Positions 5,205 through 64,000 of a DNA stretch of 64,000 nt are shown piece after piece. Origin of the DNA: Boletus sp. NGJ (taxonomy: Eukaryota; Basidiomycota; Agaricomycetes; Boletales; Boletaceae); NCBI GenBank assembly GCA_019096195.1, contig JAGTXK010000267.1:123312-187311 (forward strand), in the 5' to 3' direction. The translations under genes were made by a program, and so were the position numbers. The stretch's first letter is position 1. Each line of letters starts with the position of its first letter. Below the pieces are notes generated by a model. The model ran no database searches, was not told the origin of the DNA, and was given only the letters and a program-made list of their open reading frames with translations.

Positions 5205-5206
5205 TA

Positions 5207-6810
5207 TGTGGCTCAAAAAAGTGTCCCAATGTTTGACTATTTTGCAAAGACTTGACATTTGCAAAAGAACCAAAAGGCATTAGCCCTAACCCTTGCTGGG
5301 CCATTGATAGCCCTAATCCTTGCCCTGAAGATGAGCCCTTAGTCATGTGAGTTGGTTGTCATGGTACTGAGTTATAGCCATATTAAAAGGATATGTCATT
5401 GGGACACTTATTTGACCCTGATATTATCAACTATCATTTAGTAAATAACATAAGGTTCTGATGGATGCTGTGCTTCAACCCTGTCTGATTATGTCACTTA
5501 CATAACTCCAAATGGTATAAAGAGCAGAGATACCATTCAGCCAACCCTACTTCATTATGAAATCCACTCCCTCCTCTGCTAGAGCCAATATTCTTTTTCT
5601 CTCTGAATCTGGCCTTTCTACTAGGCAAATATCATTCCAAACTGGTCTGGGGAAGTCTCCTGTGGCCAGGGTTATCAAGGAGATCCACCCAGGCAAGGAA
5701 AACATCAAATTAGCATGTCCTTCTAAACTCTCTCCTACTGACAAAAGGAGAATTGTCTCTAGTATTACCTCTGGCAAAGTTGAAAATGCTGTCCAGGCTA
5801 CCCATCTCATCAATTCTGCTCTCTCTTCTCCTGTCTCTGCTCAAACTGTTAGGAATGTTCTCAAGTCTGCATCTCTCAAGGCTGTAGTCAAGAAAAAGAA
5901 GCCACTCTTGTCTGTGAAGCATAGGCAACATAGGCTAGCCTTTGCTCTCAAGCACCAACATTGGACTGTGGAGGACTGGACTAGGGTTATATGGTCAGAT
6001 GAAACCAAGATCAACAGGATTGGGTCAGATGGAAGGAAGTATGTATGGAAATTGGCAGGAAAGTCTTTGCAAGACAAGGAAGTTCAGGGAACAGTAAAGT
6101 TTGGAGGAGGTTCCTTGATGGTTTGGGGATGCATGAGTTGGAGTGGAGTGGAGGAATTCTTGCAGAGCTTGAAGGGAGGATGAATGCTGAGCAGTATGTC
6201 TCCATTTTGGAGGATAATCTGCTTCCTTCCATGGAAAATTCTGGAATTCCTGAAGAGAGCATTATCTTTCAACAAGATAATGACCCCAAGCACACCTCTA
6301 AAAGAGCCAAGGAGTGGCTGGAATCTCAAGGGATCAAGCTTCTTGACTGGCCAGCACAATCTCCAGACCTTAATCCCATTGAACATCTCTGGCAAATCCT
6401 CAAAAAAAATGAAACTCAATAGCTATGCAACACCACCAAAAGGAGTATGGGTGCTTTGGGAGAGAATTGAAGTGGAGTGGGGGAAGATAGAGGTTGAGGA
6501 GTGTCAAGGATTGATAGAGAGTATGCCTAGAAGACTAGAGGCAGTGATAAAAGCAAAGGGAGGGCATACGAAGTACTAAATTGAAGAATAGAAATGTTGC
6601 TCAAAAAAGTGTCCCAATGACATGTCACTTTAACATGGCTATATCTCAGTGCCATGACAACCAACTCACATGGCTAAGGGCTCATCTTCAGGGCAAGGAT
6701 TAGGGCTATCAATGGCCCAGCATGGGTTAGGGCTAATACCTTTTGGTTCTTTTGCAAATGTCAAGTCTTTGCAAAATAGCCAAACATTGGGACACTTTTT
6801 TGAGCCACTG
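5207..6810 (+). mobile_element. Tc1/mariner element, family I, copy A
   Basis: About 1,604 bp with TIRs of about 210 bp, flanked by TA (5205-5206 and 6811-6812). The right end is GAGCCACTG; the left end is slightly decayed (TGTGGCTC). The 20-bp motif CTCAAAAAAGTGTCCCAATG lies at the outer end of each TIR and recurs inverted at the inner end (around 5398-5414 and 6600-6619). The transposase lies between. Nearly identical copies are B (11,620-13,224, opposite strand) and C (48,876-50,452). Confidence 0.9.
5557..6579 (+). pseudogene. Tc1-type DD34E transposase, frameshifted (copy A)
   Basis: The ATG at 5557 opens an N-terminal helix-turn-helix (LSTRQISFQTGLGKS) followed by the catalytic core: IWSDETKINRIGSDG (first Asp), FQQDNDPKHTS (second Asp) and SPDLNPIEHLW (Glu, 34 residues after the first Asp of QDND). 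The enzyme would cut and paste the element at TA. Two breaks exist: an indel near 6,150, where GGGGATT in copy C is GGAGGAATT here, and a frame change at the A-run 6402-6409. The C-terminal tail ESMPRRLEAVIKAKG is in the third frame. Ala at LACPSK and Pro at GLGKSP differ from copies B and C. Confidence 0.85.
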
Positions 6811-9800
6811 TACATATGTGAAGTAACTCAGCTTAGTATTAGAGTCTGAAGGCACAGTTTGTATCATCTATCTCTTCCAGGTCATCCCCAGGTCCATTAC
6901 TTGCATTCCTGGTAATGTCTTCATGCTGACCCATCTCATAATTCTTATTATTAGCATTATTGGAACCTTCCAAGTCATCTGTTTTGGCATCCTCAAGTCC
7001 ATTTTCTAAGCCACTCCCTTCATACTCATCATTCTTGCTGGGTCCTTTCTCTCAAATGCTGCAATCATCAGTTGTGCAGTTGCTATGTTCTAAGTTGGCA
7101 TGATCACACTCATCATCTGGACAGTCAATATTTTGTCTGTCCTGGTTTGGTGGTATCAAAGGATGGTATCGGGCATGGTGACCAACACCAATACCTGAGT
7201 ACCACATGAACATATTATAATCGGCGAAACTAGGGAGATGTCATGTTTCCTGGAACTTTAGTATAGATACACACACATGTTAACATAGTATGCTGCCCAG
7301 TCATCAAAAACATCTGTTTGCTAAGTGACAGATGGACTGTAGTGGAGAAATGAGTCAGTGTGACCATCTGCAAACACAGGGATGAAGTGGCAAGCACAGA
7401 GGACGAAAGATGGGTCAATAAAGCTGAAGGCAGCACCTGAGTCTGAGGGGATGAAGCCAATCTTCAGAAGGCAAGCATTATCAAGTCCCCAATGATAACC
7501 TGGTATGACATCAAACCAGTGAACCCATAGAAACTCCATGGTTTGCTCAATACCTGAGTATTAAACCATGATGAGGAATGCACCTAAAACCTCAACATAC
7601 CAGAAGGGATGGGTGTTTGGACCATCCTTATATGAGAGCAACATAATGGCAGCACCATGTTCTAAACATAGGGTGTCTTGGTCACGATGCATATCATATG
7701 TTGTGTAGTTGATTTATAGATGTTTTGGGCAGAGAACCCTGTTGAGACTATTCACAAACCAAACAGAGTTACATTCCTCACTGGAGAAAGTCTGCTCATC
7801 ACCATTGTAATCACAAGCTAGAAGTCATGACAGCAAATGATCCTTGAGCTTTGGGATGAAGTCCTGAACAACATCAGCATGCTAGTGAGCACAATATTAC
7901 TTCGTCAATTTGCTATAGTAAAGTGGACCTGACCTCCAATGCTGGATCATTGGACAAGCTTTGAAGGAACTCTACAAGGTTGAAGGCATTGGCCAGGGAA
8001 GTCAATAGTCGATGATGGAGTTTGTGTGGGATCTCAGCTAAGTCACTCTTTAGGTCTATATTTCCATTGGGTTCTATATAGTATTAAGTGTCACACTGGC
8101 GCTGAACCTGCATGCATCACCTCTCTTGCTTGGTAATCTGCCTTCCAGAGTTCTTCTTGTTAGTACATTGGTAGAATTTTTTGATGCATTTGTAAGCAAC
8201 CTCTTCCTGCCAGTGGCAATGGAATATTGTTAATGATTCTTTTGTAAAATGATGATGTGTCAGTGGGTTGGCTTACAATTTGGATAGTATATGAATCTAT
8301 TGTTTCAAACTGCTGGATTGATTGTATGCACATAATCTCCTAGTGCATGTAACTTATATGTATCAAGGTTGAACGACTTGGGGCAGGCACCAGAGATATT
8401 ATAAGTGGTTGTGTTTGATGTGCTGAACTGATTATTCTTCAATCTCCAGTACACGGCTGCTTCAGATGGTAACTCCAACATGTTGAAGGCTCTGCACACG
8501 AAGTCTTGGAATTTCCTGAGTTGCCAGCCAAGCAGAGAAGTAGTTTCATCAAGAAGAGCAAGTGATTCATCAGTATGGAGTCGTAACTTAGCAAGGGCAT
8601 GCCAATGAGCAAGCCAAAAGAGGAGATTCCATATGATACTGTCATATCCAGCAGGGAACAATCCTTAAAAGCTGGAATCATACACTAGAAGCAGCTTTTA
8701 CACATGTACATGAAGTCATTTATAGTAGTATCATACCTGCAGGATGTCCTCAAAGTATTGAGCTGCACTATAATGAGTGGTTGATATATTGGGCGGAAAT
8801 CAGCAGATTGAACCCTTTTTGAATGGTTGTATCTGGTAGAATCTTAGACAGTAGCAAGTTTATCATATGAAAAATGTCAGACTAAGACAAGAATGGACAC
8901 ACCTATCATTTAGAATTGATACCATGCCTGAATCAATGGCATATAGAAGTTGTAAGAGGTACTTGAATACCAATTTGAATACTCCCAACTTGAATTCATG
9001 GAGAAGATTGATGACAAGGATGTGATAAATATTGCATCCCAGTGAACCAAGGGAATCCTCTATTGCATTCTATTAATAAATGTCAGTTGCTGTACATAAC
9101 AATGAATACTGAATGACTGACAATTGTAGATATGAGTGACATGTGCTTCAGGTACACTTTTGGAATTCTACCTTTGATTTGTGAGCCAAGGTTGTAAATG
9201 GCATTGCATGCTGCAGTAACCTTCTCATAGAAATATGCACGTATCCTGAATATCCTCCATGATGCATCAGATAAAAGTCTGAGAAAGTGAAAATCTGTCT
9301 TTGGGGTAAGACAGCATGGACATGGGCAATGACCTTTATCCTGAATTGTAGCTAGCAGAACTCTACAGCCACGTTGTAAGCTAATAATACTATTGAAATA
9401 TTAAACACTTACTTCTCTGGGTAATCTGCCAAGTATGTGAAGATGCAAGGGAAGACTTGCTAAGATTTGCCATCATAGCACTTGATAACAATGCCATTCT
9501 GGTATGCATCAAGAAATTCATTGTCCAATAAGGTCCCCCACACTGCATGAAACATCTCTTGCTTGCAGTGCATCAAAATGTCATTCAGGGACTTTTTCTT
9601 TGCAAAGCTAGATACATGTTTTACTATGGTTTCTGGTAACTAATTTCAGTAGCTCTCAGTGACATGAATAGATCATATTGAATAGGGTGAAACTTGTGCT
9701 GGGAATGAAGGCAATGGGATAACATGCCCCCAGATCAGAACAGCCTCACACACACTTTGACTGGTTCCCAAAGAATAGTTAAACTGGCCAAGCAGATGCA

Positions 9801-11619: not shown

Positions 11620-13224
11620 CAGTGGCTCAAAAAAAGTGTCCCAATGTTTGGCTATTTTGCAAAGACTTGACATTTGCAAAAGAACCAAAAGGTATTAGCC
11701 CTAACCCTTGCTGGGCCATTGATAGCCCTAATCCTTGCCCTGAAGATGAGCCCTTAGTCATATAATTTGGTTGTCATGGCACTGAGATATAGCCATATTA
11801 AAGTGACATGTCATTGGGACACTTTTTTGAGCAACATTTCTATTCTTCAATTTAGTACTTCGTATGCCCTCCCTTTGCTTTTATCACTGCCTCTAGTCTT
11901 CTAGGCATACTCTCTATCAATCCTTGACACTCCTCAACCTCTATCTTCCCCCACTCCACTTCAATTCTCTCCCAAAGCTCCCATACTCCTTTTGGTGGTG
12001 TTGTATAGCTATTGAGTTTTTTTTTTTTTGAGGATTTGCCAGAGATGTTCAATGGGATTAAGGTCTGGAGATTGTGCTGGCCAGTCAAGAAGCTTGATCC
12101 CTTGAGATTCCAGCCACTCCTTGGCTCTTTTAGAGGTGTGCTTGGGGTCATTATCTTGTTGAATGATAATGCTCTCTTCAGGAATTCCAGAATTTTCCAT
12201 GGAAGGAAGCAGATTATCCTCCAAAATGGAGACATACTGCTCAGCATTCATCCTCCCTTCAACCTCTGCAAGAATCCTCCACTCCACTCCAACTCATGCA
12301 TCCCCAAACCATCAAGGAACCTCCTCCAAACTTTACTGTTCCCTGAACTTCCTTGTCTTGCAAAGACTTTCCTGCCAATTTCCATACATACTTCCTTCCA
12401 TCTGACCCAATCCTGTTGATCTTGGTTTCATCTGACCATATAACCCTAGTCCAGTCCTCCACAGTCCAATGTTGGTGCTTGAGAGCAAAGGCTAGCCTAT
12501 GTTGCCTATGCTTCACAGACAAGAGTGGCTTCTTTTTCTTGACTACAGCCTTGAGAGATGCAGACTTGAGAACATTCCTAACAGTTTGAGCAGAGACAGG
12601 AGAAGAGAGAGCAGAATTGATGAGATGGGTAGCCTGGACAGCATTTTCAACTTTGCCAGAGGTAATACTAGAGACAATTCTCCTTTTATCAGTAGGAGAA
12701 AGTTTAGAAGGACATCCTAATTTGATGTTTTCCTTGCCTGGGTGGATCTCCTTGATAACCCTGGCCACAGTAGACTTCCCCAGACCAGTTTGGAATGATA
12801 TTTGCCTAGTAGAAAGGCCAGATTCAGAGAGAAAAAGAATATTGGCTCTAGCAGAGGAGGGAGTGGATTTCATAATGAAGTAGGGTTGGCTGAATGGTAT
12901 CTCTGCTCTTTATACCATTTGGAGTTATGTAAGTGACATAATCAGACAGGGTTGAAGCACAGCATCCATCAGAACCTTATGTTATTTACTAAATGATAGT
13001 TGATAATATCAGGGTCAAATAAGTGTCCCAATGACATATCCTTTTAATATGGCTATAACTCAGTACCATGACAACCAACTCACATGACTAAGGGCTCATC
13101 TTCAGGGCAAGGATTAGGGCTATCAATGGCCCAGCAAGGGTTAGGGCTAATGCCTTTTGGTTCTTTTGCAAATGTCAAGTCTTTGCAAAATAGTCAAACA
13201 TTGGGACACTTTTTTGAGCCACTG
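11620..13224 (-). mobile_element. Tc1/mariner element, family I, copy B
   Basis: 1,605 bp, TA at 11618-11619 and 13225-13226, with perfect outer ends CAGTGGCTC and GAGCCACTG. TIRs of about 200 bp have the outer and inverted inner motif as in copies A and C. It lies inside the N-terminal part of the Plavaka pseudogene, so it is younger than that element. Confidence 0.9.
11852..12873 (-). pseudogene. Tc1-type DD34E transposase, frameshifted (copy B)
   Basis: The minus-strand ATG is at 12873. HTH motif GLSTRQISFQTGLGKST, IWSDETKINRIGSDG, QQDNDPKHTSKRAKEW and PDLNPIEHLW are intact, so all three catalytic acids are present. Compared with copy C it carries an indel after MSWSGV (near 12,280) and a 13-T run (12017-12029) that puts the last 55 or so codons in another frame. 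It is the least damaged at the N-terminus of the family I copies. Confidence 0.85.
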
Positions 13225-13875
13225 TAGATGCAAGTGGTTCAGATGAAGCCTTTGAGAAGGGCAGAGTGGAAAGGGAAAAATGTCCCTAAATTGTGCAGGT
13301 AAGTGTCCTGACTGCATGGGGCAGGCTGAGCTTCCTATGCCACCATGTGGTCCTCAGCAATTGGTCCTGGTTCACTAGGCAGTGGAGGTCTAGGCTCCAT
13401 AGCAACATCCTGGCTGTCACTATTCGTATCGGTGACCATGGTGTCAGCAGGATTGGACTTGGATGAAGGTTGGATGGGGGACTGTGGCAGCACTCCAGCT
13501 GGTAGAACACTGGTTGGGTCAACACTTGATGCTGGCTCATCATTATTCTGCTGTGGAAGCCAAGTTGAGATCAGTAAAATTGCTATGGAAATACTATATG
13601 TATGAACACTATCCTCTTGCCATCTTGGCTTCTTGGAGGCCAGGCTATTTCATGTAGATTCACATGCTGGCAGGAGTCATTTATGTTGACATTTGGCTCA
13701 TATAGCCACATATTGTTGCTAATAGTGTATACAGGTTGGGTGATGGCGAAGAAGACTTCCACTTGTGTTGAATGTCTACCTACACAACAAAGCACCACAT
13801 TTAAAATGTTGAGGTTCATCCATCACAAAGAGGGAGAGAAAAGCGACTAGGATTGTGAATAACAGTATGATACAC

Positions 13876-18835: not shown

Positions 18836-20148
18836 CATCAGTAAATACAGGATTTCATCATAGTGCTTATAGTGCCATACAGTGACTCCAAAAACCCTTT
18901 CCATGCTAACCCTCAATGTGGTACGCTTTGCACACCACCACACACTGTGGGACTTTCGCTTAGCTTTAGTGGAGTTATAAATAGTACATACTCTAGGCTA
19001 CGAGATTGCTCCCTAGGTCATGTGATTTGGTCCACAGGCTGTGGAGATATGATCAATGTGAAACAGTAATACCATGGAAAGGGTTTTTTCACTTTTAAAC
19101 TGATAACTAGGATCTTAGTCAAATCATATCATATTTGCCATTGTTTGTTCATGCAAACAAAGATATACATATAAATAGCATGTCTGAGCTTAAAAAAGTT
19201 CACACAGTTCTTGATTCTCAATCACCACCATGATCAAATCCCTCTCCCTTCCCCAATAAAGCACTATTCTCTCTTTGCTTGATTCTGGCTGCTCTGGTGA
19301 AGCCATTGCCAAGCAAACTGGTGTCAGCCCTTCTGCCATATCCAAGCTTTGCTCCAAAGAGCATTCTGCCCTTCCCAAAGCTTCTGGGGGTCATCCTTCC
19401 AAGCTTTCTCCCACCAACATTTGTCATGCCCAACATCTAATCACCTCTGGGAAAGCTGAAAATGCTGTTCAAGTAGCCAAAGCCCTCACCAATATCATCA
19501 ACCAACCCCTCTCTGCCAATACTGTCTGCCTCCACTTGAAGAAAGCTGGTATGAAAGCTGTGATGAAGTCCAAACATCCCCTCCTCTCTGCTAGGCATCA
19601 CAAGGCTCACTTGGATTTTGCCTATGCACATAAGGATTGAAGGTGATATGGTCTGATGAGACCAAAATCAATCGCCTAGGGTTAGATGGGCATAAATGGG
19701 CATGGAAGAGGGCAGGTGAGGGGCTTAGTGATAGGCTGGTGTATGGAACCCTCAAGTTTGGAGGAGGTTCTCTGATGATATGGGGCTGTATGACTTGGGA
19801 GGGAGTTGGCTTTGCTACTAAGATTGATGATAGGATGGATGGAGATCTCTACCTTCAAATTTTGAAGGATGAGCTTCAGCAAACCCTGGAGTATTATGGT
19901 CTCAATCCTCCTAACATTATCTTTCAGCAGGACAATGACCCCAAGTGTACCTGCAGGCTGGTCAAGAAGTGGCTAGAGGAGCAAGAATTCAGTACTATGG
20001 TGTGGCCTGCATAATCTCCTGACCTCAACCCTATTGAACATCTTTGGAGTTGTCTGAAGAGGAGCCTTGCAAAGCATGAAAACCCCTCTAATGGAATTCA
20101 TGAATTGTGGGAAAGGTTCAAGTGGAGTGGGATAGGATACCAGTGGAG

Positions 20149-20320
20149 TGTTGTAATTAGCAATTGTCATGTGGCTGTGGTAGATTACCAAGCATATACT
20201 TAGTTTTTTCAGCTTCGTGTTTGCCTTCCCTCAGTGATTCTATCTGGTTCACTGAGATATGGCCCTATCTATCTTTTCTCTATACCTAGTTGACAATCCT
20301 GTAGTTCATTACTTGCTACA
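20149..20320 (+). repeat. Copia 5' LTR
   Basis: 172 bp, TG..CA termini, abuts the TGGAG duplication on the left and the primer-binding site on the right. Confidence 0.9.
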
Positions 20321-20337
20321 GGTTATGAGCCCTGGTC
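20321..20337 (+). promoter_or_regulatory. Copia primer-binding site for half initiator tRNA-Met
   Basis: GGTTATGAGCCCTGGTC lies directly after the 5' LTR. Its complement contains GGGCTCATAACC, the anticodon-loop region of eukaryotic initiator tRNA-Met (CAT anticodon), not the acceptor 3' end. Drosophila copia and some fungal relatives prime from a 5' half of this tRNA, so the same mode is likely here. Confidence 0.7.
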
Positions 20338-20410
20338 AATAGCTTTCAGACGAAGTATTAAAAAAAAATTTGAACAAACCAACGTCGCTCATCCCGTGTC
20401 TTGAGAAACA

Positions 20411-21375
20411 ATGTCAACTCTTAAGCTAGGCAAAGACTTCATCAAGGCAGTGCCCAAACTAGATGCTTCGGGCAAGAACTGGCCAATGTGGAAGCATAAA
20501 GTCACAGTAGCATTGTCAACAAAGAGACTACTCCCATACCTACATGGTAAAAAGTCGTTACCGATTGACCCAGCAGCAGCCCACTCCCCAGCATGGATAC
20601 CCCAAACACCAGACAAAGTGAAAGCCTGCGAAGACTACAAAGAGGCTATGGAAACATGGCTCGAGAAGGATGCCATTGTCAAGCATCTTATCTCGTCTTC
20701 TGTCCCCAACTCCGTCTACATCTCATTGATGTTAAAAACAACCTCCCACGAATACTATATAGCCCTTCAGGAACGTTTTGAGGATCGTTCACTGGTTGTG
20801 AGTGTCGAACAGTAATGACAGCTCGGAGAGATGAAGCTAAAAGAAAATGGCGATGCCCAGGCCCACCTTGACAAGATGAGCCTACTCCGTGAAGAACTTG
20901 CAGCCATGAACAACCCCATTATCGATAACGATTTCTTCAATATGGTATTCACATCACTACCCTGCTCTTATAACTCCATTCTGTTGTCTGTGTTGTCAAC
21001 AATAAGACTGCAAAACAAGCAGATTAGTGCCCATGTACTAATATCTATGGTGTTGGATGAGTATGACCACCTAGTGGCGCAAGGCAGCAGAAAACAAGTC
21101 AAAGGAGAATGATGATGTAGCACTAGTGGCCGACTCTTCAAAGAAAGGAAAAGAGCAAAAGAAATTTACCGGCGATTGCAATAACCGTGGGTGGTCAGGC
21201 CATAAATCATGGAACTGCTGGGAGGAAGGAGGTGGGAAGGCCAGGAAGGCTCCGAAGAGCTGGAAGCCTAGAGGAAAGAAACCGAAGTCAGATGCGAATA
21301 ACTCAGCAAAAGACTCAAAGTCTACTACCCATGTGAAAATAGCTACTGTTGATGACAATGAGCCCGACGGTATAT
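20411..21375 (+). pseudogene. Copia gag with decayed zinc knuckle
   Basis: ATG 20411. The N-terminal part has the Copia gag pattern (NWPMWKHKV, LPYLHGK, TLEKDAIVKHL-like region, ISLMLKTTSHEYYIALQERF). Two consecutive stops (TAA TGA, 20813-20818) interrupt it, the frame continues to 21,110, then shifts. The nucleic-acid-binding knuckle reads CNNRGWSGHKSWNC: the second cysteine of C-X2-C-X4-H-X4-C is Arg (CGT for TGT), so it should not bind zinc. The frame closes at a TGA near 21,375. Confidence 0.8.
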
Positions 21376-21429
21376 GATTAGCGGAAGGACTCGAAGAACC
21401 TAGCATTGAGGCTACATCCACTTTACCGT

Positions 21430-24400
21430 ATGCTACACTCACTCAGGTATCCATCACTGAACTCTACGACAGTGGTGGTTCGCAACATCTCTCTCCATGT
21501 TGAGATCAACTCATCAATTTTAAGTCCATTCCCCCTAAGCCCATAACTGTGGCGGACAACTGGATGTTCAACGCTATAGACTGTGGCGATCTCCCCATCG
21601 AAATCCCAAATGGAAAGTCTATGACCTGAGTACTCCTGAAAGATGTGCTGTACGCACCGTCAATGGGGGTTACTTTGGTGTCAATAAGTAGGCTAGCAGC
21701 AGCCAGATACTCGGCACTATTCCAAGACTCAGTATGCCATATCTTCAACCCCCATAAACACCTGGTGGGGGAAGTACCAGTCAACAATGGCCTTTACCAA
21801 GTTAAACACCATGCGAAATCATTTGCCAGTGCTGCAGCTGAAAAGGAAACACTCACAATGGAGGAACTACACGCCCGATTGTTGCACTTAGCACCCATGA
21901 CAATCCAAGACATGCTGTCAAAGGGAATGATTAGCAGAGTAAAGCTGGACTCTACACAGGAAACAATGGGTCAGTGCAAGTCCTGCAAGTATGGGAAAGC
22001 CGTTCACAAACTGATTGGAAAAGTCCATGAGCCCCAATGTAGCGAACACTTCAGCGACGAAGTCCATACAGATGTTTGGGGTCCATCAGACATGCAAACC
22101 CCCGGCCATAAGAAATACTATGCATCGTTCACGGACAACTACACCCGCTATACCCACATCTTCCTGCAAGCAGCAAAATCAGATACCTTCAACTCATATA
22201 AGACTTATGAAGCTTGGGTGAAAATGCAGCATGGCACAATAATAAAACGACTCTATTCGGACCATGGAGGCAAATACCTGAGCGATGACTTTATGCATCA
22301 CTTAAAAGCTCAAGGTACTGAACAAAAACTCACCGTGCATGATATACCGCAGCACAATGGTGTTGCTGAATGGTTAAACTGTACTCTACTTGAACGGGTG
22401 TGCACTGTGCTGCATGTGTCTGGACTTCCAAAAACTCTATGGGAAGAAGCTTTAGTACATGTCATATGGGTGAAAAATTGAACTGTGTCACGTGTCCTCA
22501 ATGGGAAGACGCTGTACGAGCTCCTACACAACAAACAACTGAATTTAGCTCACCTACCTGTGTGGGGAGTTTGTGTCTGGGTCCACGATGCTTCTGGCTC
22601 CAAACTGAACATGCAAGCGAAAGCAGGCCACTGGATAGGCTATGATGCCGAAAGTGGTGCACACCGTGTATACTGCAAGGGCTGCATCACCATAGAATGA
22701 AACATCTAATTCGAGAAGAACAAGAACACTGTAATCGTGCTACCAGGCTCGTTGACCATTGAAGGGGAGTGAGCAGAGAGAGCGCTGATCAAAGGGGAGA
22801 AGAAAACGATCGATCAAAATGATCAGCGCTGAGATGCAAACAATGACAACGCACACAACTTACCCAAAGATCCACCAGAACCTGCACCCAAGCCTGTCCA
22901 AGAACTCAGACGCTCCAGTCATCAGCGCACGGAATCGCCATACATGCGATTGTTGTGCAGTGGTGCTGGGACGCACGACGGACGAGAAGGGGAAAGGGCT
23001 GTCATGAGAACGAGGGCAATAAGGCTGCCAAAGAAGCTGATGTGAGCGCAGGTATATGGGATACAGAAGACAATGAAACCGCCACTTATGCGATGCACAC
23101 TGGCATTAGTGAGGCTGAGGGACTCGAATCAAAGACAATCGATGAGGCACAGCAACGGCCAGATTGGCTGCGATGGGATGAAGCGATCAATGCTGAATTG
23201 AAGAGTCTCACCGACGCACACACCTGGGACCTCATACCTCGCCTGCCAAGGCCTACCAACGTCATTGACTGCAAATGGATCTTCAAGATAAAGAAGACGG
23301 TGACAGGCAAAATTGACAAATACAAGGTGCGATTAGTCGCACACAGCTTCACTCAGGTACACGGCGTAGACTACTATGAAACATACGCTCCTGTCGCCTG
23401 TCTCAGTTCCCTCAGACTAGTCCTTGCCACTGCAGCTTGTCATGATTGGGACATCGACGTTTTTGACTTTCACAGTGCATTCCTCAATGGCAAACTCAAC
23501 AACAATGAAATAATATTCATGGAACTCCCTCCCGGTTTCAACAAAAACGGCCAAGACCTTGTTGCCTGACTATGTGTAGCCCTCTATGGGTCTAAGCAGG
23601 GCACATTAAAATGGTATCAGAGGCTTTGTAAAGAGCTCACCATCCTAGGGTTCCATTGCACCGAGGCTGACTGGGAAATTTTCATTGCTAAAGTCGCCAA
23701 CCACATTCTCATCCTCGTGTCGCACATCGACGACTGCACTATCACCGGCAGCTCAAAAGAGCTCATTAAAGCATTTAAGACCAAAATTGGGTCTCGTTTC
23801 AAGATCACAGATCTTGGGTCCATCAGTTGGCTCTTAGGGATGAAGGTAACATGCGATCAGCATGCACACACGATTTCTATTTCCCAAGAATCGTACATAG
23901 AATCCATCCTCGCGAAGTACAACTTCATTGACACGAAACCAATCTCTATCCCCATGGACCTGAATATTCAGCTCTTGAAATCCCAGTCCCCGAAATCAGC
24001 CACCGAAGCTGCAATAATGAAACAGGTACTGTTTCGCGCTGCACTGGGGTCATTAATGTACCTAGCCGTTGGTACTAGGCCTGACATCGCCTTCGTTGTC
24101 TCTACTCTTGCACAATTTACAGAAAACCCCGGTCTGCCATATTGGGACACACTAAAACAAGTCTACTGCTATCTTCTCAGTATGAAGAAATGGGCGCTGA
24201 CCTATAGAACAGAGACAAAAGGTCTCATTGGCTACGCTGATGCCAACAGGGCATTGCAGAAGCATCAGCATGCCATTACTGGCTATGCCTTCCTCGTCAA
24301 TGGGGGAGCCATTTCCTGGAGCTCATGCAAGCAGGAGCTGGTCACTCTCTCTACCACAGAGGCCGAGTATGTCGCATCGACCCATGCTGCAAAGGAAGCC

Positions 24401-24688
24401 ATCTGGCTTTGTCGGCTTATCTGTGAGCTTTACGGGCTGCTCGAGCAAGCCACTGTCCTCTTTAATGATAACCAGTCCACTATCGCACTTACAAAAGACA
24501 ATAATTACCACGTGCACACCAAACATATTGACATACAATACCACTTTATTCATTTTTCTGTTTCTAAAGGCTCTATCCAACTGATCTACTGCCCCACTGA
24601 TCATATGATAGCAGATACACTTATGAAGGCTCTCCCTTTGGTTAAAGCCAAACACTTTGCTTTCAAACTTGGACTCTGCTCCAATTGA
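21430..24688 (+). pseudogene. Copia pol (protease, integrase, RT, RNase H)
   Basis: Protease motif DSGGSQHLSP (about 21,467). Integrase 21,645-22,481: zinc-binding HARLLHL..CKSC, then VHTDVWGP, LYSDHGGKYLS and NGVAEWLN supply the D,D,E acids. RT: CKWIFKIKK, DFHSAFLNG (23,460), and a catalytic HIDDC (23,727) in place of YVDD. RNase H: GYADAN, TEAEYVA, FNDNQS, with HTKHIDIQYHFI near the end; stop 24686-24688. TGA stops at about 21,500, 21,627, 22,479 and 23,567 and a frame break around 22,700-22,955 inactivate it. Active-site acids are all retained, so the loss is recent on the protein scale. Confidence 0.88.
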
Positions 24689-24695
24689 GGGAGAA

Positions 24696-24868
24696 TGTTG
24701 TAATTAGCAATCGTCATGTGGCTGTGGTAGATTACCAAGCATGTACTTAGTTTTTTTCAGCTTCGTGTTTGCCCTCCCTCAGTGACTCTGTCTGGTTCAC
24801 TGAGGTATGGCCCTATCTATCTTTTCTCTACATCTAGTTGACAAACCTGTAGTTCATTACTTGCTACA
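24696..24868 (+). repeat. Copia 3' LTR
   Basis: 173 bp. Compared with the 5' LTR it has eight transitions, one transversion and one extra T. Confidence 0.9.
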
Positions 24869-26504
24869 TGGAGGAGTGTCAGAAATTGATTGAAAGCATG
24901 CCTAGGAGGATTCAGGCAGTGCTTAGAGCAAAAGGAGACTATACCAAGTACTGATAATATCCAAATACCCTTTTCAATTCAAAAGTGAAAAAACTCTTTC
25001 CATGGTATTACTGTTTCATATTGATCATATCTCCACAGCCTGTGGACCAAATCACATGACCTAGGGAGCAATCTTGTAGCCTAGAGTATGTACTAGTTAT
25101 AACTCCACCAAAGCTAAGCGGAATTCCCACAGTGTGTGGTGGTGTGCGAAGCGCACCACATTGAGGGTTAGCATGGAAAGGGTTTTTGGAGTCACTGTAG
25201 TAGTTTCATAGTAGTCATAGTAGTTTCATAGATAATTCATAGTGTTTATAGTATCATAGTATTGAAAGTGTATTCATAGTATCCATGGTATATTCATAGT
25301 GTTCATAGTATCATAGCATTTCATAGCATTGATAGTATATTCATAGTAGTCATAGTCATAGTAGTAATTTTAAGCTAATCCTAATCCTAATCCCAATCCT
25401 AATCCTAAATCAAAAGCATACAAAATGTGTAGTCAAAAAGTGCACAAAAAGTGTAGTCAAATGTGTAGTCAAATGTTGTACAAAAAGTATAGGGAAGAGT
25501 GTAGTACAGTGTAGCAAACAGAGTGTAGTAAAAAAAGCAAACAAAAGTGTAGCAGAGTGTAGTACAGTGTAGCAGACAAAGTGTACCAAAAGTGTATTAA
25601 AAATGCGCACCAAAGTGTAGTAAAAGTGTAGTCACAATGTGTACCAAAAGTGTAGACCTACACTCAAAAAAAATATCCAAGCCCATTTTCCCACACTCAG
25701 TGTTAAAAAAGCGGACATTGTTTGCCAATGTTTGTGCCACCATTCTTATATAAACAACCAGACTTCAAAAACATTCCCACACCTTCTTGTTTCTTAATTT
25801 TATCCTTCTCTACTCATTACATGAAGCCAACACTTCACTTTGTAAATCATTAGGATTGGGACTGGGACTGGGATTAGAATTAGAATTAGAATTAGAATTA
25901 ATAGAATTAATATTTGATTGAATTTGAAATTAGAATTGGCTTGAAATTGGATTAGGATTAGGATTAGGATTAGGATTGCTAAGCCACTATGGAAGCACTA
26001 TGTATACTATGGCATCACTATGACCACTATGGAAGTTCTATGAGAATACTATGAGAATACTATGACCACTATGAAAGTACTATGAGAATACTATGAGAAT
26101 ACTATGACAGACTATAGCCATACTATTAACAGAGTATGAGACACTGTCATAGTACTATCAAACCACTATCCAGTTGGACCCTCACTATGAGCACTATGTT
26201 ACTGTCCAGCACTGTCCAGCACTGGACAGTTAGTCCTGTTTTTACTGATGAGAGTCATTGCACAATGGAAAGAAACTTATGAAAACTTCAAATTTCACAC
26301 TAGTTTCAAGTAGGGCTGCAATGGATATGTCATAATGTGGTCACTGGCCTTAGTAAAATATTTGGTGTAGACTTGGGAATATACGTCTGTAGTTCTTGGA
26401 GTGGAAATATGCAGTCATATTACAGTCTTGGGGGCTTGCTGTCCATAGTGCTCCAAAAGCTCAATGCCATCAGACTCGGGACCAATGCCTAAAAGCGACC
26501 AAAT

Positions 26505-46546: not shown

Positions 46547-46714
46547 AGTAAAGGCTCTCTACTAGGCCAATCATCAACACTTAGACGCAGTAGTTGAGAA
46601 TGGGGATGCCAATGGCATCAAGGATGACTCATAGCTGCAGGTCATGACTACCTTCTTAACTCTCTTCCTTACTTGCAACAATCTATACTGCATCGCATCT
46701 CCATGGACACCCTA

Positions 46715-48317
46715 CAGTGACCTCCAAAACTGTTGCAATGTCTAACCCTGATGTGGTGCGTGCAGTGCACCACAAACACCCGTGGGAATTACACTTCGCT
46801 TTGGTGGGAACAAACAAAGTACACACTCTTGGCTACAATCCGGCCTCTGGATCATGTGATTTGGATCAGAGGCTGTGGAGTTATGTCTATTTCAAAACAG
46901 CAATACCATTGCAACAGTTTTGCACCTTTTAGTAGAGAATGTGCAATCTTGTTGAAATATCATCATAAGTGGCAATGTTTGGTTATACAAACAAAGATAC
47001 ACATACAAATATTTTGTCTGAGTTTGAAATAGTTCACACACTTCTTTATTTCCAACCACATCATCATGAGATCCATCTCTTCTACTCAGAAAAACACCAT
47101 TCTCTCTATGCTTGATGCTGGCCAGTCAGCTCATTCTATTGCTGCCACCACTGGTCTCCATGCTTCTACCATATCCAGGCTCCACTCCAAAGAGCGTTCT
47201 GAGCTTCAGAAGTCTGCTGGAGGTCGCCCATCCAAGCTTTCTCCTATCAATCTTCGTCATGCCATCCGTCTTATTTCATCTGGAAAGGCAGAAAATGCTG
47301 TCCAGGTGACCAAGGCTCTCACCAATGTGGTCAACCAACCCCTCTCTACCTCCACAGTATGCACTGGCACTTGAGAAAAACTGGTATGAAGGCTGTGGTA
47401 AAGTCTAAACGCCCCCTTCTATCAGCTAGGCACCACAAGGCTCGCTTGGACTTTGCCTATGCTCATAAGGATTGGACTATAGAGGACTGGAAGAAGGTAG
47501 TATGGTCTGATGAGACTAAAATCAATCGCCTAGGGTCAGATGGGTGAAAATGGGGCTGGAAAAAAGCAGGTGAAGGGCTTAATGATAGATTGGTTGAAGG
47601 GACCTTGAAGTTTGGAGGAGGTTCTCTCATGATGTGGGGGTGTATGACTTGGCAGGGAGTTGGCTATGCTACCAAGATTGATGGTAGGATGGATGGAGAC
47701 CTTTACCTTCAGATTTTGAAGGATGAGCTGCTGAATACTCTGCAGTATTATGGTCTAGATCCTCCTAACATGATCTTTCAGCAAGACAATGACCCCAAGC
47801 ATACTTGCAAAAAGGTGAAAGAGTGGCTTGGAGAGCAGGAGTTTGGGACTATGATATGGCCAGCACAGTCTCCTGACCTCAACCCCATTGAACACCTCTG
47901 GGGTCACCTCAAAAGAAGGCTAGCAGATCAAGAACAACCTCCTAGTGGAATTCATGAGTTATGGGAGAGAGTTCAGGTGGAATGGGAGGGGATACCACTT
48001 GAGGAGTGTCAGAAGTTAATTGAAAGCATGCCTAGGAGGGTTGAGGCAGTGCTCAAGGCAAAAGGAAGGCTATGCCAAGTACTAATACCCACTTCATATC
48101 AAGAGATGCAAAACTGTTGCAATGGTATTGCTGTTTTGAAATGGACATACCTCCACCGCCTCTGATCCAAATCACATGATCCAGAGGCCGGACTGTAGCC
48201 AAGAGCGTGTACCTTGTTTGTTCCCACCAAAGCGAAGTGTAAGTTCCCACGGGTGTTTGTGGTGCACTGCACACACCACATCAGGGTTAGACATTGCAAC
48301 AGTTTTGGAGGTCACTG
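46715..48317 (+). mobile_element. Tc1/mariner element, family III, copy F
   Basis: 1,603 bp, TA at 46713-46714 and 48318-48319; outer ends CAGTGACCTCC and GGAGGTCACTG. The outer AAAACTGTTGCAATG recurs inverted at the inner TIR edges (46,905-46,925 and 48,108-48,128). It inserted just 3' of the cyclin relic. Confidence 0.9.
47066..48085 (+). pseudogene. Tc1-type transposase, lightly damaged (copy F)
   Basis: ATG 47066, HTH region GQSAHSIAATTGLHASTISR, then a 2-nt insertion near 47,360, VVWSDETKINRLGSDG followed at once by a TGA (47546), FQQDNDPKHTCKKVKEW, SPDLNPIEHLWGHLKRR and ESMPRRVEAVLKAKG; a 1-nt insertion shifts the last few codons. All three catalytic acids are intact and only three lesions separate it from an open frame. 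Confidence 0.85.
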
Positions 48318-48319
48318 TA

Positions 48320-48875: not shown

Positions 48876-50452
48876 CAGTGGCTCAAAAAAGTGTCCCAAT
48901 GTTTGACTATTTTGCAAAGACTTGACATTTGCAAAAGAACCAAAAGGTATTAGCCCTAACCCTTGCTGGGCCATTGATAGCCCTAATCCTTGCCCTGAAG
49001 ATGAGCCCTTAGTCATGTGAGTTGGTTGTCATGGTACTGAGTTATAGCCATATTAAAAGGATATGTCATTGGGACACTTATTTGACCCTGATATTATCAA
49101 CTATCATTTAGTAAATAACATAAGGTTCTGATGGATGCTGTGCTTCAACCCTGTCTGATTATGTCACTTATATAACTCCAAATGGTATAAAGAGCAGAGA
49201 TACCATTCAGCCAACCCTACTTCATTATGAAATCCACTCTCCTCCTCTGCTAGAGCCAATATTCTTTTTCTCTCTGAATCTGGCCTTTCTACTAGGCAAA
49301 TATCATTCCAAACTGGTCTGGGGAAGTCTACTGTGGCCAGGGTTATCAAGGAGATCCACCCAGGCAAGGAAAACATCAAATTAGGATATCCTTCTAAACT
49401 TTCTCCTACTGATAAAAGGAGAATTGTCTCTAGTATTACCTCTGGCAAAGTTGAAAATGCTGTCCAGGCTACCCATCTCATCAATTCTGCTCTCTCTTCT
49501 CCTGTCTCTGCTCAAACTGTTAGGAATGTTCTCAAGTCTGCATCTCTCAAGGCTGTAGTCAAGAAAAAGAAGCCACTCTTGTCTGTGAAGCATAGGCAAC
49601 ATAGGCTAGCCTTTGCTCTCAAGCACCAACATTGGACTGTGGAGGACTGGACTAGGGTTATATGGTCAGATAAAACCAAGATCAACAGGATTGGGTCAGA
49701 TGGAAGGAAGTATGTATGGAAATTGGCAGGAAAGTCTTTGCAAGACAAGGAAGTTCAGGGAACAGTAAAGTTTGGAGGAGGTTCCTTGATGGTTTGGGGA
49801 TGCATGAGTTGGAGTGGAGTGGGGATTCTTGCAGAGGTTGAAGGGAGGATGAATGCTGAGCAGTATGTCTCCATTTTGGAGGATAATCTGCTTCCTTCCA
49901 TGGAAAATTCTGGAATTCCTGAAGAGAGCATTATCTTTCAACAAGATAATGACCCCAAGCACACCTCTAAAAGAGCCAAGGAGTGGCTGGAATCTCAAGG
50001 GATCAAGCTTCTTGACTGGCCAGCACAATCTCCAGACCTTAATCCCATTGAACATCTCTGGCAAATCCTCAAAAAAAAAACTCAATAGCTATACAACACC
50101 ACCAAAAGGAGTATGGGAGCTTTGGGAGAGAATTGAAGTGGAGTGGGGGAAGATAGAGGTTGAGGAGTGTCAAGGATTGATAGAGAGTATGCCTAGAAGA
50201 CTAGAGGCAGTGATAAAAGCAAAGGGAGGGCATACAAAGTACTAAATTGAAGAATAGAAATGTTGCTCAAAAAAGTGTCCCAATGACATGTCACTTTAAT
50301 ATGGCTATATCTCAGTGCCATGACAACCAAATTATATGACTAAGGGCTCATCTTCAGGGCAAGGATTAGGGCTATCAATACCTTTTGGTTCTTTTGCAAA
50401 TGTCAAGTCTTTGCAAAATAGCCAAACATTGGGACACTTTTTTGAGCCACTG
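48876..50452 (+). mobile_element. Tc1/mariner element, family I, copy C
   Basis: 1,577 bp with TA at 48874-48875 and 50453-50454, perfect ends CAGTGGCTC/GAGCCACTG. The right TIR is about 25 bp shorter than in A and B because the repeat ATCAATGGCCCAGCAAGGG region is missing near 50,380. Confidence 0.9.
49226..50245 (+). pseudogene. Tc1-type transposase (copy C)
   Basis: The family ATG is at 49226, but one extra base within the first seven codons ends that frame early; the long open part starts at 49333 (MARVIKEIHPGKEN) and is continuous to 50088. It passes through SWSGVGILAEVEGRM without the indel seen in A and B. The first catalytic motif reads IWSDKTKIN (Glu to Lys next to the Asp). A run of ten A (50071-50080) puts the last 50 or so codons in another frame. 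Confidence 0.85.
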
Positions 50453-50533
50453 TACACTAAGTCTGAGATCCTGTTCACAGAGCACTGCTACAAGACATCA
50501 AAGGCTTCTGAAGAAACAATGGATGGTCACCAG

Positions 50534-57120: not shown

Positions 57121-58227
57121 CATTAGTAAAAACAGGACTAACTGTCCAGTGCTGAACAGTACTGGACAGTAACATAGTGCTCATAGTGAGGGTCCAACTG
57201 GATAGTGGTTTGATAGTACTATGACAGTGTCTCATACTCTGTTCATAGTATGGCCATAGTCTGTTATAGTATTCTCATAGTGTCTCATAGTATTCTCATA
57301 GTACTTTCATAGTGGTCATAGTGATGCCATAGTATACATAGTGCTTCCATAGTGGCTTAGCAATCCTAATCCTAATCCCAATCCTAATCCAATTTCAAGC
57401 CCATTCTAATTTCAAATTCAATCAAATATTAATTCTATTAATTCTAATTCTAATTCTAATCCCAGTTCCAATTCCAATCCCAATCCTAATCCTAATCCTA
57501 ATGATTTATAAAGTGAAGTGTTGACTTCATGTAATGAGTAGAGAAGAATAAAATTAAGAAACAAGAGGGTGTGGGAATGTTTTTGAAGTCTGGCTTGTTT
57601 ATATAAGAATGGTGGCACAAACATTGGCAAACAATGTCCGCTTTTTTAACACTGAGTGTGGGAAAATGGACTTGGATATTTTTGTTGAGTGTAGGTCTAC
57701 ACTTTTGGTATACATTGTGACTACACTTTTACTACACTTTGGTGCGCATTTTTGGTACACTTTTGGTACACTTTGTTTGCTACACTGTACTACACTCTGC
57801 TACACTTTTGTTTTCTTTTTTTTACTACACTCTGTTTGCTACACTGTACTACACTCTTTTCTATACTTTTTGTACAACATTTGACTACACATTTGACTAC
57901 ACTTTTTGTGCACTTTTTGACTATACATTTTGTATGCTTTTGATTTAGGATTAGGATTAGGATTAGGATTAGGATTAGGATTGGCTTAAAATTACTACTA
58001 TGACTATGACTACTATGAATGTACTATGAATGCTATGAAATGCTATGATACTATAATACTATAATACTATAATACTATGAACACTATGAATATACTATGG
58101 ATACTATGAATACACTTTCAATACTATGATACTATGAACACTATGAGTTATCTATGAAACTACTATGACTAGTATGAAACTACTATGGCACTATGAGCAC
58201 TATGATGAAATCCTGTGTTTACTGATG
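57121..58227 (-). mobile_element. Element G, copy 2 (intact, inverted relative to copy 1)
   Basis: 1,107 bp, ends CATTAGTAAAAACAGGA and TCCTGTGTTTACTGATG. It carries the same internal tracts as copy 1 in reverse complement: GTCCAGTGCTG, CATAGT words, CCTAATCCTAATCC, GTACACTTT/ACTACACTTT tracts, ATTAGGATTAGGATT and CTATGA words. No coding frame of substance; the frames at 57,609-57,948 are products of the ACTACAC/TTTGTAC repeats. Confidence 0.78.
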
Positions 58228-62030: not shown

Positions 62031-62534
62031 ATAAGGTAAATTTCTTTGTTAAAATGCCTCACTGAACATTGACAAGCACTGCAGGTTCAGACACTGTAAT
62101 TATTAATATAACCATGTTGGTGCAAACTGGGACATTCTGAATCTGAAGGCAAGTTTTGTGTGTTCAAACTATGTAGTATGTACTGAGCTAACAACAACAT
62201 TATCCAAGACCAAGAGTATAAAATGGCAAAGGTGTAGTCCACTGCCAGATCATTTTCACTTCACTGACATTATCAGCTGCAGTCTATTACCTGGATTCTT
62301 TGTGTCTGTATCTTCTCTTTCAGTCTTGAATCCCTCCCTTTCAAACTCTCTCTAAGTCTTCAATTGTTGACATGCCACAGAATTGATGCCCACTGCCAGT
62401 CCAGAATAAAAACAAAGAAATCATCAACCTGAATGGATCTCATGTATCAAATGATAGATCAAGTCAAGAGAAAGATGAGGAATGATGTAACCAAGAGCAA
62501 ATCATGGCCATTATGCAATAGCCACTGCCTGATG

Positions 62535-64000
62535 CAGATTCAAAAAACTGTCCGCATGTTTGGTCATTTTTCACTAAACGTGTTATTCCCCAATAACCCC
62601 TAACCCTTACCCTAACATATAGGTGTATGAAATGAAGCACTGACCCTTGGCATTCTATCCACCAAGGTTTTAAGACATATGAATAAGAATTGATGAACTG
62701 GCAGCCATTTCAAAACAATGACTCATTCAGACAGTTTTTTGACTCTAAATTTATCTAGGTATCTAGTACTTGGTATGAGCTCCTTTGGCCTTGATAACTG
62801 CTTCAATCCTTCTAGGCATACTTTCTATCCATTTCTGACACTGTTCCTCATCAATCTTTCCCCACTGCTCCACTACTCTTTCCCACAATTGATGAACACC
62901 TGTAGAAGCATTTTCATAACCTGAGAGGCATCTCTTGAGGTGATTCCAAGTATGTTCAATGGGATTAAGGTCTGGAGATTGTGCAGGCCAGTCCAGAAGC
63001 TTGATTCCTTGCTCTTCAAACCATCTTTGGGCTCTTTTAGAGGTATGCTTGGGATCATTATCTTGTTGAAAGATAATGTCATCTTCTGGAATTCCAGATT
63101 CCTCCATGCTTTGCAGCAACCCCTGCTCCAATATGGCCACATACTGTTCAGCATCCATTCTCCCCTCCACCTCACTCAAAATCCCCACTCCATTCCACCC
63201 TATGCAGCCCCATACCATCAGTGAACCTCCTCCAAACTTGACTGTGCCTTGGACCTCTCTAGCAATTAGCCCCTCTCCTTTCTTTTTCCACACATACTCT
63301 TGCCCATCTGACCCAATCCTATTGATCTTGGTCTCATCTGACCATATAACTCTCTTCCAGTCCTCCACAGTCCAATGCTGGTACTTGAGAGCAAAGGCTA
63401 ATCTTCTTTTCTTGTGACCACTAGAAAGCAGTGGCTTTTTCTTCTTTACCACAGCCTTTAAGGAGGCTTCCTTGAGAGTATTTCTAACAGTCTGAGGACA
63501 GACAGGGGTATCAATAATGGTATTGATGTATTGGGCAGCATGAACAGCATTCCTGGCCTTGCCAGTAATAATTTGCTGAACAATAGCTCTTTTGTTGGTA
63601 GAGGTAAGCTTGGAAGGACAGCCACCAAGAAGCCTAGTCTTCTCTGGCTGGAGTTCCTGAAGCACTTGGCATACTGTAGACTTCCCTAGGCCAGTTTGGG
63701 CAGAGATTTTCCTAGAGGAAAGCCCATGAGAGGAGAGAGAGATGATATTGTTTCTTTGAGAGATGGAAATGGGTTTCATGGCAATGGTGGGAAAATAAAC
63801 ATGGAATGATGGGGTTTATATATGTTGTCTGACACTCAGTTACATAATGGTGACATAATAGAAGCCTTACCAAATGTATGTAATCATATTACAGCATGCT
63901 AGGGTCCAATATATGTAATCAAAACTTAGAGTCAAAAAACTGTCCGAATGAGTCATTGTTTTGAAATGGCTGCCAGTTCATCAATTCTTATTCATATGTC
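62535..64000 (-). mobile_element. Tc1/mariner element, family II, copy D (right end outside window)
   Basis: Left outer motif TTCAAAAAACTGTCCGCATG at about 62,539; inner inverted copy CATTCAGACAGTTTTTTGAC near 62,727. On the right only the inner copy (GTCAAAAAACTGTCCGAATG, 63,934) and the following TIR are present, an exact match to the left TIR, until the window ends. The left TA is not clear. Confidence 0.85.
62763..63779 (-). CDS. Intact Tc1-type DD34E transposase
   Basis: 338 codons without interruption, ATG 63779-63777. HTH1 GLSSRKISAQTGLGKSTVCQ; second HTH part ends VCPQTVRNTLKEASLKAV; basic KKKKPLLSSGHKKRR; core IWSDETKINRIGSDG, FQQDNDPKHTSKRAQRW, SPDLNPIEHTWNHLKR with D, D and E at the DD34E spacing; C-terminal ESMPRRIEAVIKAKGAHTKY. 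Normal family length is about 340. It lies in its own TIRs and has no lesion, unlike every other Tc1 gene in the window. It would bind its TIRs and insert at TA. About 60% similar by eye to family I. Confidence 0.9.
   Translation of the reverse strand: MKPISISQRNNIISLSSHGLSSRKISAQTGLGKSTVCQVLQELQPEKTRLLGGCPSKLTSTNKRAIVQQIITGKARNAVHAAQYINTIIDTPVCPQTVRNTLKEASLKAVVKKKKPLLSSGHKKRRLAFALKYQHWTVEDWKRVIWSDETKINRIGSDGQEYVWKKKGEGLIAREVQGTVKFGGGSLMVWGCIGWNGVGILSEVEGRMDAEQYVAILEQGLLQSMEESGIPEDDIIFQQDNDPKHTSKRAQRWFEEQGIKLLDWPAQSPDLNPIEHTWNHLKRCLSGYENASTGVHQLWERVVEQWGKIDEEQCQKWIESMPRRIEAVIKAKGAHTKY

Follow-up and report, generated by a model that had tools for sequence, protein, structure and literature searches.

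Tc1-like elements of four related families in the Boletus sp. NGJ genome carry an inverted second copy of the end motif at the inner edge of long terminal inverted repeats

The window (the whole stretch of 64,000 nucleotides analysed here) is part of one contig of the Boletus sp. NGJ genome (G000; 32.8 Mb in 141 contigs), and contains Tc1-like elements of four related families, I to IV (Table 1). The first-pass annotation had distinguished three Tc1 families; the plan that it described for their ends holds, and its family III is made up of two families, III and IV, which are about 77% alike in DNA. Family I is present as three copies, the third of which (copy c) has a right terminal inverted repeat (TIR) with a spacer shorter by about 24 bp. 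The family IV element is interrupted by a retroelement, judged by eye from its open reading frames to be of the Copia type. The second outer end of the family II element lies outside the window and was observed in other copies in the genome. At its low end (62521-62558) this family II copy has no TACAGTG tip despite the intact transposase gene, and it may be immobile yet act as a source of enzyme. The window also contains two arrays of GGATTA/TAATCC repeats, which resemble, but are not identical to, TTAGGG telomere repeats.

Table 1 Positions of the Tc1-like elements, their end motifs and other repeats in the window.
Feature	Position	Strand	Description
Family I copy a	5207..6810	+	TA at 5205-5206 and 6811-6812; transposase reading frame interrupted
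Family I copy a, left outer motif	5212-5231	+	CTCAAAAAAGTGTCCCAATG, 0 mismatches
Family I copy a, left inner motif (inverted)	5397-5416	-	2 mismatches to CTCAAAAAAGTGTCCCAATG
Family I copy a, right inner motif (inverted)	6600-6619	+	0 mismatches; about 20 bp past the end of the transposase gene
Family I copy a, right outer motif	6785-6804	-	CTCAAAAAAGTGTCCCAATG, 0 mismatches
Family I copy b	about 11620-13225	-	Motifs at 11627-11646, 11812-11831, 13014-13033 and 13199-13218; plan as in copy a
Family I copy c	about 48876-50454	+	Motifs at 48882-48901, 49067-49086, 50266-50285 and 50427-50446
Family III element	46713..48319	+	Reading frame broken
Family III outer motifs	46725-46740, 48292-48307	+, -	Pattern match to CAAAACTGTTGCAATG
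Family III inner motifs	46907-46922, 48109-48124	-, +	Pattern match to CAAAACTGTTGCAATG
Family IV element	18890..25187	+	Interrupted by a retroelement
Family IV outer motifs	18890-18905, 25172-25187	+, -	Pattern match to AAAAACCCTTTCCATG
Family IV inner motifs	19073-19088, 24989-25004	-, +	Pattern match to AAAAACCCTTTCCATG; 1 mismatch in the second
Family II element	62539..64000	-	Motif matches; other outer end beyond the window
Family II outer motif	62539-62558	+
Family II inner motifs	62724-62743, 63931-63950	-, +
Family II transposase gene	62763..63779	-	Intact, 338 aa, DD34E
Spacer word CATGTGAnTTGG in families I, III and IV	5344-5355, 46853-46864, 19019-19030, and mates
Repeat arrays	25834-25977, 57362-58011		GGATTA/TAATCC

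The transposases place these elements in the Tc1 family. Families I and II encode intact proteins of 338 aa, 69% identical to each other, in whose alignment the triad D148, D240 and E275 is invariant, with 34 residues between the last two (DD34E), and both proteins score above the curated Pfam cut-offs for DDE_3 and HTH_Tnp_Tc3_2. The best match among solved structures was Sleeping Beauty SB100X (5cr4, E 4.9e-74), with Mos1 and the DNA-binding domain of Tc3 (1u78, E 1.8e-5) far behind. A structure model contains two three-helix units in residues 1-104 (mean pLDDT of 62 over the whole model); the assignment was taken from the sequence match. The structure match and the pLDDT-62 model together put the transposase closest to that of Sleeping Beauty, with a paired-like, two-part DNA-binding domain. 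The protein search returned 7358 homologues among 7993 scored candidates, and many of the 120 listed lie on contigs of 1.5-2.3 kb, a length that can hold a complete element; no relatives outside this genome were confirmed in the viral contigs (searched with the family II protein; 18-row alignment) or in the genome contigs (18-row alignment). Further families in this genome were sought with two degenerate end patterns that avoid the usual letters of families I to IV and span only part of the possible motifs: they gave 8 and 2 matches, all variants of I, III or IV. Rarer families may exist, because 150 of the 410 candidates of the PF13358 family search were scored.

All four families follow one plan at their ends, and the earlier description of long TIRs in which the end motif is repeated, inverted, at the inner edge was confirmed for every one of them. 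The TIRs of the reference copies measure 213-217 bp and read, from outside to inside: TA, CAGTG, motif, spacer, inverted motif. The motif, of 16-20 bp, stands behind TACAGTG, and its inverted inner copy follows about 165 bp further in, starting at TIR position 193-197 in the reference TIRs of the four families. Written from outward to inward, the motifs are: AAAAAGTGTCCCAATG in family I, with an identical right inner copy and AATAAGTGTCCCAATG as the left inner copy; AAAAACTGTCCGCATG (outer) and AAAAACTGTCCGAATG (inner) in family II, which differ at one position, C in the outer and A in the inner copy; CAAAACTGTTGCAATG in family III and AAAAACCCTTTCCATG in family IV, both with identical inner copies. 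The previously noted inversion of the 20-bp family I motif is therefore exact at the right inner site (0 mismatches) and inexact at the left, where exactly the 2-base variant GTCAAATAAG... is found in 54/58 left TIRs. Within family II the motif contains a CpG, and C-to-T and G-to-A variants recur there in both the outer and the inner copies among the matches listed.

The tip distinguishes the two copies. TACAGTG is missing from the inner copies in the reference TIRs of the four families, CAGTG being carried by the outer copies alone. TA is present at the tip in 211/217 scored TIRs and the full TACAGTG in 186/217, that is, the TA insertion and CAGT ends of Tc1/mariner elements; in the family I copy at 5207 the CAGTG tip is one base short at the left end. 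Compared in 20-bp bins, the two TIRs of an element share 80-100% of their letters as far as position 200, and their identity drops past the inner motif, to 0.38-0.60 in the bin 221-240.

A scan of one whole copy each of families I, II and III found exactly four good sites, two per end; the next-best match had 6-7 mismatches, a level also reached by shuffled motifs. No direct second copy of the motif was found in the eight reference TIRs, where the best direct match had 7-10 mismatches versus 0-3 for the inverted one (8/8). When 3 mismatches are allowed, the window contains 13 matches to the family I motif (0.02 expected in shuffles), 12 of them in the three family I copies and one at the family II inner site; CAAAACTGTTGCAATG and AAAAACCCTTTCCATG have 4 matches each (0.08 and 0.05 expected, respectively). 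Genome-wide, the family I motif gave 465 matches at up to 2 mismatches and the reversed control pattern gave 0.

The inner copy is retained throughout the genome. The fetched loci contained 254 non-overlapping TIR matches, which were reduced to 217 distinct scorable TIRs by dropping those starting more than 30 bp in, those running off the locus and duplicates; very short derivatives may be under-represented in this set, because the loci were found via a TIR or a transposase, a bias from which the genome-wide motif counts are free. At up to 4 mismatches the inner motif was kept in 215/217 TIRs. The two exceptions were L128 (inner motif with 6 mismatches) and the family IV copy L113 (11 mismatches), in which one inner motif has been lost. 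The first-pass annotation had named copies lacking the inner motif, if equally abundant and young, as evidence against a functional inner site; this outcome was not observed, ends of this kind being rare. Counted across the genome, outer and inner sites are about equal in number: 236 outer (up to 2 mismatches) and 240 inner (up to 3) in family I, 180 outer and 169 inner (both up to 2) in family II. For the family I outer sites the lower threshold was used because the higher one, at which 358 are counted, also admits family II outer ends.

The gap between outer and inner motif was 164-168 bp in 191/217 TIRs, and 165 bp in most of the scored family I and II TIRs. In TIR length (about 220 bp) and in the distance of about 165 bp between its two sites, the typical end agrees with those of the Sleeping Beauty type. 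In family I a short-spacer variant occurs at the right end, shorter by 24-27 bp (gap of 138-141 bp in 10/55 right TIRs); a gap of 138 or 139 bp was found in 8/39 fetched family I loci, all 8 with a 338-aa open reading frame, indicating that the exact spacing is not strictly needed at one end. Four sites in the order + - + - are found in 35/39 fetched family I loci; at up to 3 mismatches, three sites were recognised in L079, L096 and L103 and none in L108.

The identity of the motif changes between families, and it changes in both copies together. Among the outer motifs of the four families, 8 of the 16 columns vary; in these columns the inner letter is that of the outer motif of the same family in 31/32 cells (63/64 over all columns, the right-end inner copy being used for family I), the sole mismatch being the C/A position of family II. 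When the inner letters were redealt among the families the mean was 50/64, and 63 was reached in 1 of 200,000 shuffles. The paired change that the first-pass annotation had suspected is thereby strongly supported. As a control for the choice of window, every pair of 16-bp windows in the right TIRs was scored, inverted and direct (42,849 in total): the motif pair came top (63/64), followed by its shifted neighbours, and the best off-diagonal pair reached 36. The 16-bp core was picked because outer and inner copies agree there, which the scan of all window pairs offsets only partly. By the contrast between own-family and cross-family agreement the motif pair scored 17.3 (up to 20.7 at shifted neighbours), a value reached by 0/42,202 off-diagonal pairs, and the margin over the best other pair was small (17.3 versus 16.3).

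The surroundings of the motif have diverged too. Spacer identity between families is 0.40-0.47 in five of the six pairs and 0.72 for III-IV, and identity in the inner motif region ranges from 48 to 71%, higher than in the spacer in 5/6 pairs and slightly lower in III-IV, where the motif has accordingly changed at least as fast as its surroundings, outer and inner copies in step. The N-terminal helix-turn-helix also differs between families, which fits the change of the motif, four families being too few for a test. The number of independent events is small, because these are four families of one genome, with I-II and III-IV as closer pairs.

Within families, the substitution rates did not set the inner motif apart (Table 2). 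The neighbouring TIR sequence had been suggested as the yardstick, with an inner motif no more conserved than it counting against a function, and this outcome holds in part: the inner motif was less variable than the spacer in 5/8 end sets and more variable in 3/8, so no consistent excess conservation was present, and the 25 bp just inside the TIR were less variable than the inner motif in 5/8 sets. In copies decaying after insertion, such an excess would not be expected. Conservation within families was rejected as functional evidence, as it does not separate the inner motif from what surrounds it, and a function was for this reason inferred from the covariation and the fixed architecture.

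Table 2 Substitution rates of the inner motif and the spacer against the commonest letter (218 TIRs, 8 end sets).
End set	Inner motif	Spacer	Remark
Family I left	0.0066	0.0125
Family I right	0.0069	0.0208
Family II left	0.0126	0.0315
Family II right	0.0277	0.0251
Family III left	0.100	0.083
Family III right	0.038	0.067
Family IV left	0.019	0.038	plus one deletion
Family IV right	0.086	0.066

Among known systems the closest in plan is Sleeping Beauty, whose motif letters differ from those found here. Its TIRs are described in PMC7827188 as about 220 bp long with outer and inner direct repeats, the inner bound more strongly and all four sites needed; according to PMC11754664, outer and inner repeats are 165-166 bp apart and have an 18-bp core in common. 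The elements described here have TIRs of almost the same length (213-217 bp), two sites per end, the same distance between them (mostly 165 bp in the scored TIRs of families I and II) and, as in Sleeping Beauty, an inner site that consists of the core only. The difference lies in the orientation: the inner site is inverted in 8/8 reference TIRs and direct in Sleeping Beauty, a contrast that the first-pass annotation had drawn correctly, as far as these two sources describe the latter. The Bari1 and Bari3 elements of Drosophila are likewise Tc1-like with more than one site per long end; each of their ends is reported to carry three repeats in direct orientation, several binding sites being located in the outermost 250 bp, and long-TIR forms are described (PMC4877112, PMC8834629), unlike the two sites per end, the inner inverted, seen here in one copy each of families I, II and III.

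Tc3 of C. elegans resembles these elements through its DNA-binding domain, which matches the transposase (the 1u78 match above). The TIRs of Tc3 are long and include a further, internal binding site. The transposases of the P element and Galileo belong to a superfamily unrelated to Tc1. For the P element and Galileo, the titles and abstract openings of PMC7776569 and PMC3688188 point to accessory sites inside the ends, in the form of internal inverted repeats or of several transposase sites within long TIRs, a feature shared with the elements described here; Tc3 appears in PMC7827188 as an element with a single site per end and short TIRs. No description of an inverted inner site in a Tc1 element was found among the titles and starts of abstracts listed in searches of the open-licence literature; the second sites of Tc3, Minos, Paris and S may have either orientation. 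That the inverted inner site is new to Tc1 elements is a judgement based on this search.

We propose, with a probability of roughly 0.7, that these are Tc1/mariner DD34E elements with two-site ends of the Sleeping Beauty type in which the inner site has been flipped, and that the inner site would serve the assembly of the end complex. The proposal is built on features read from the sequence: the sites, their orientation and spacing, the missing inner tip, the genome-wide retention and the paired change across four families. The outer site, adjoining TA and the CAGTG tip, would be the cutting site, and the inner site, about 165 bp in and made of the core part alone, would act in end-complex assembly or synapsis, as the inner repeats of Sleeping Beauty do. 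The first helix-turn-helix (PAI-like) subdomain would bind both. Because outer and inner copies changed together between families, the transposase probably docks at the inner copy as well; such paired change may reflect selection keeping both sites readable by a changing transposase. The view that the inner site is functional, put forward when the window was first annotated, is supported in part, by the paired change and the fixed architecture, and draws no support from the conservation within families. Further observations speak against the proposal: the 138-139-bp spacing of the 8 family I loci with a 338-aa frame, the C/A position of family II, the lost inner motif of L113, and a short family IV element on C34 (described below) whose outer motifs changed without the inner ones following.

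Other origins of the inner copy can be weighed against the same observations. It could be an operator: transposase bound there, close to the promoter from which it is itself expressed, would repress transcription, and the copy at the opposite end would be kept only through homogenisation of the left and right TIRs. In favour of this are the position of the left inner site, about 140-150 bp before the start codon in L077 (family I) and L031 (family II), the high identity of left and right TIRs reported above, and a precedent, since luciferase expression from the left TIR of Bari3 fell significantly in the presence of Bari1 or Bari3 transposase (PMC4120734). The right inner site, however, is about 20 bp past the stop codon, away from the promoter, and is kept about as well, and transposition of Sleeping Beauty is stated to require all four of its sites (PMC7827188); we consider an operator unlikely. 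Even less probable, in our estimation, is an inner copy without function, in which the two motifs form a palindrome whose arms become alike through hairpin- or template-switch-mediated copying inside each TIR and so change together without selection. The two motifs are indeed inverted copies, as the mechanism requires, and no clear constraint emerges from the conservation within families. Copying of this kind is hard to reconcile with the fixed differences that persist between the arms (the family I left inner variant, the C/A position of family II), with a shared tract that ends at the motif and excludes the CAGTG tip in the reference TIRs, and with a family IV derivative of about 0.85 kb (G000:C34:26230-27085; L131, L132). 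This derivative has TIRs at both ends and carries T for C in both outer motifs and in neither inner motif, so that outer and inner differ although the left and right outer motifs agree.

The presence of the motif at both ends of the TIR, oriented as the ends of a transposon are, would also suit an origin of each TIR as a former short element, the transposon being a composite of two of them around the transposase gene. Neither TA nor CAGTG is present at the inner end of the reference TIRs in any of the four families, and among the first 100 each of the 236 (family I) and 180 (family II) outer sites, inspected by eye, there was no plus/minus pair about 215 bp apart, i.e. no solo unit; a composite origin is accordingly very improbable.

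Through the flip, the two sites within one end are oriented towards each other as the two transposon ends are, and they could pair in a holding complex. We tentatively suggest, as an idea that is possible and still rather doubtful, that a lineage of the Sleeping Beauty clade kept the 165-bp two-site spacing and flipped the inner site, and that the transposase could begin by joining both sites of a single end, in a symmetrical complex serving as a brake or checkpoint before end-to-end synapsis; this single-end complex would be uncuttable, because the inner site is without TA and CAGTG. We know of no Tc1 element with such a transpososome geometry. Sleeping Beauty is a widely used gene-transfer tool, and assembly models account for its need for two sites per end with one orientation and a fixed distance; a natural relative with the same spacing, the opposite orientation, many copies and intact transposases would provide a ready-made test of these models. 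The four diverged motif sets might moreover offer orthogonal pairs of ends and enzymes, intact transposases being known here for families I and II.

Several individual copies and spacer sequences stand apart. L108 (G000:C22:2395813-2398199), a copy of family I with 97.5% identity in its middle part, has no TIR motif at up to 3 mismatches; it lies in a longer open frame (410 aa from a start codon, 422 aa in another count) and is either truncated or, possibly, fused to host sequence. Three other family I copies (G000:C3:28271-30852, C73:738274-740932 and C79:214089-216771) measure about 2.6-2.7 kb between their outer ends versus the usual 1.6 kb; the extra 1.0-1.1 kb appears at different places in the C73 and C79 copies, judged from the position of the DDE match, and in the C79 copy (L028) about 1 kb has no match to family I, II or III or to the window. 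The extra sequence is perhaps another mobile element.

In the TIR spacer, the word CATGTGAnTTGG, earlier reported as common to families I and III, occurs in family IV too and not in family II (8 matches in the window versus 0.14 expected), which has CATATGAATAAG at the aligned place; the word is possibly a host-factor or bending site. In the spacers of families III and IV (e.g. L117, L111) the reference copies have, some 11 bp inward of the outer motif, a short palindrome, TGTGGTGC...GCACCAC, which is missing from some family III copies and was not seen in the reference TIRs of families I and II.
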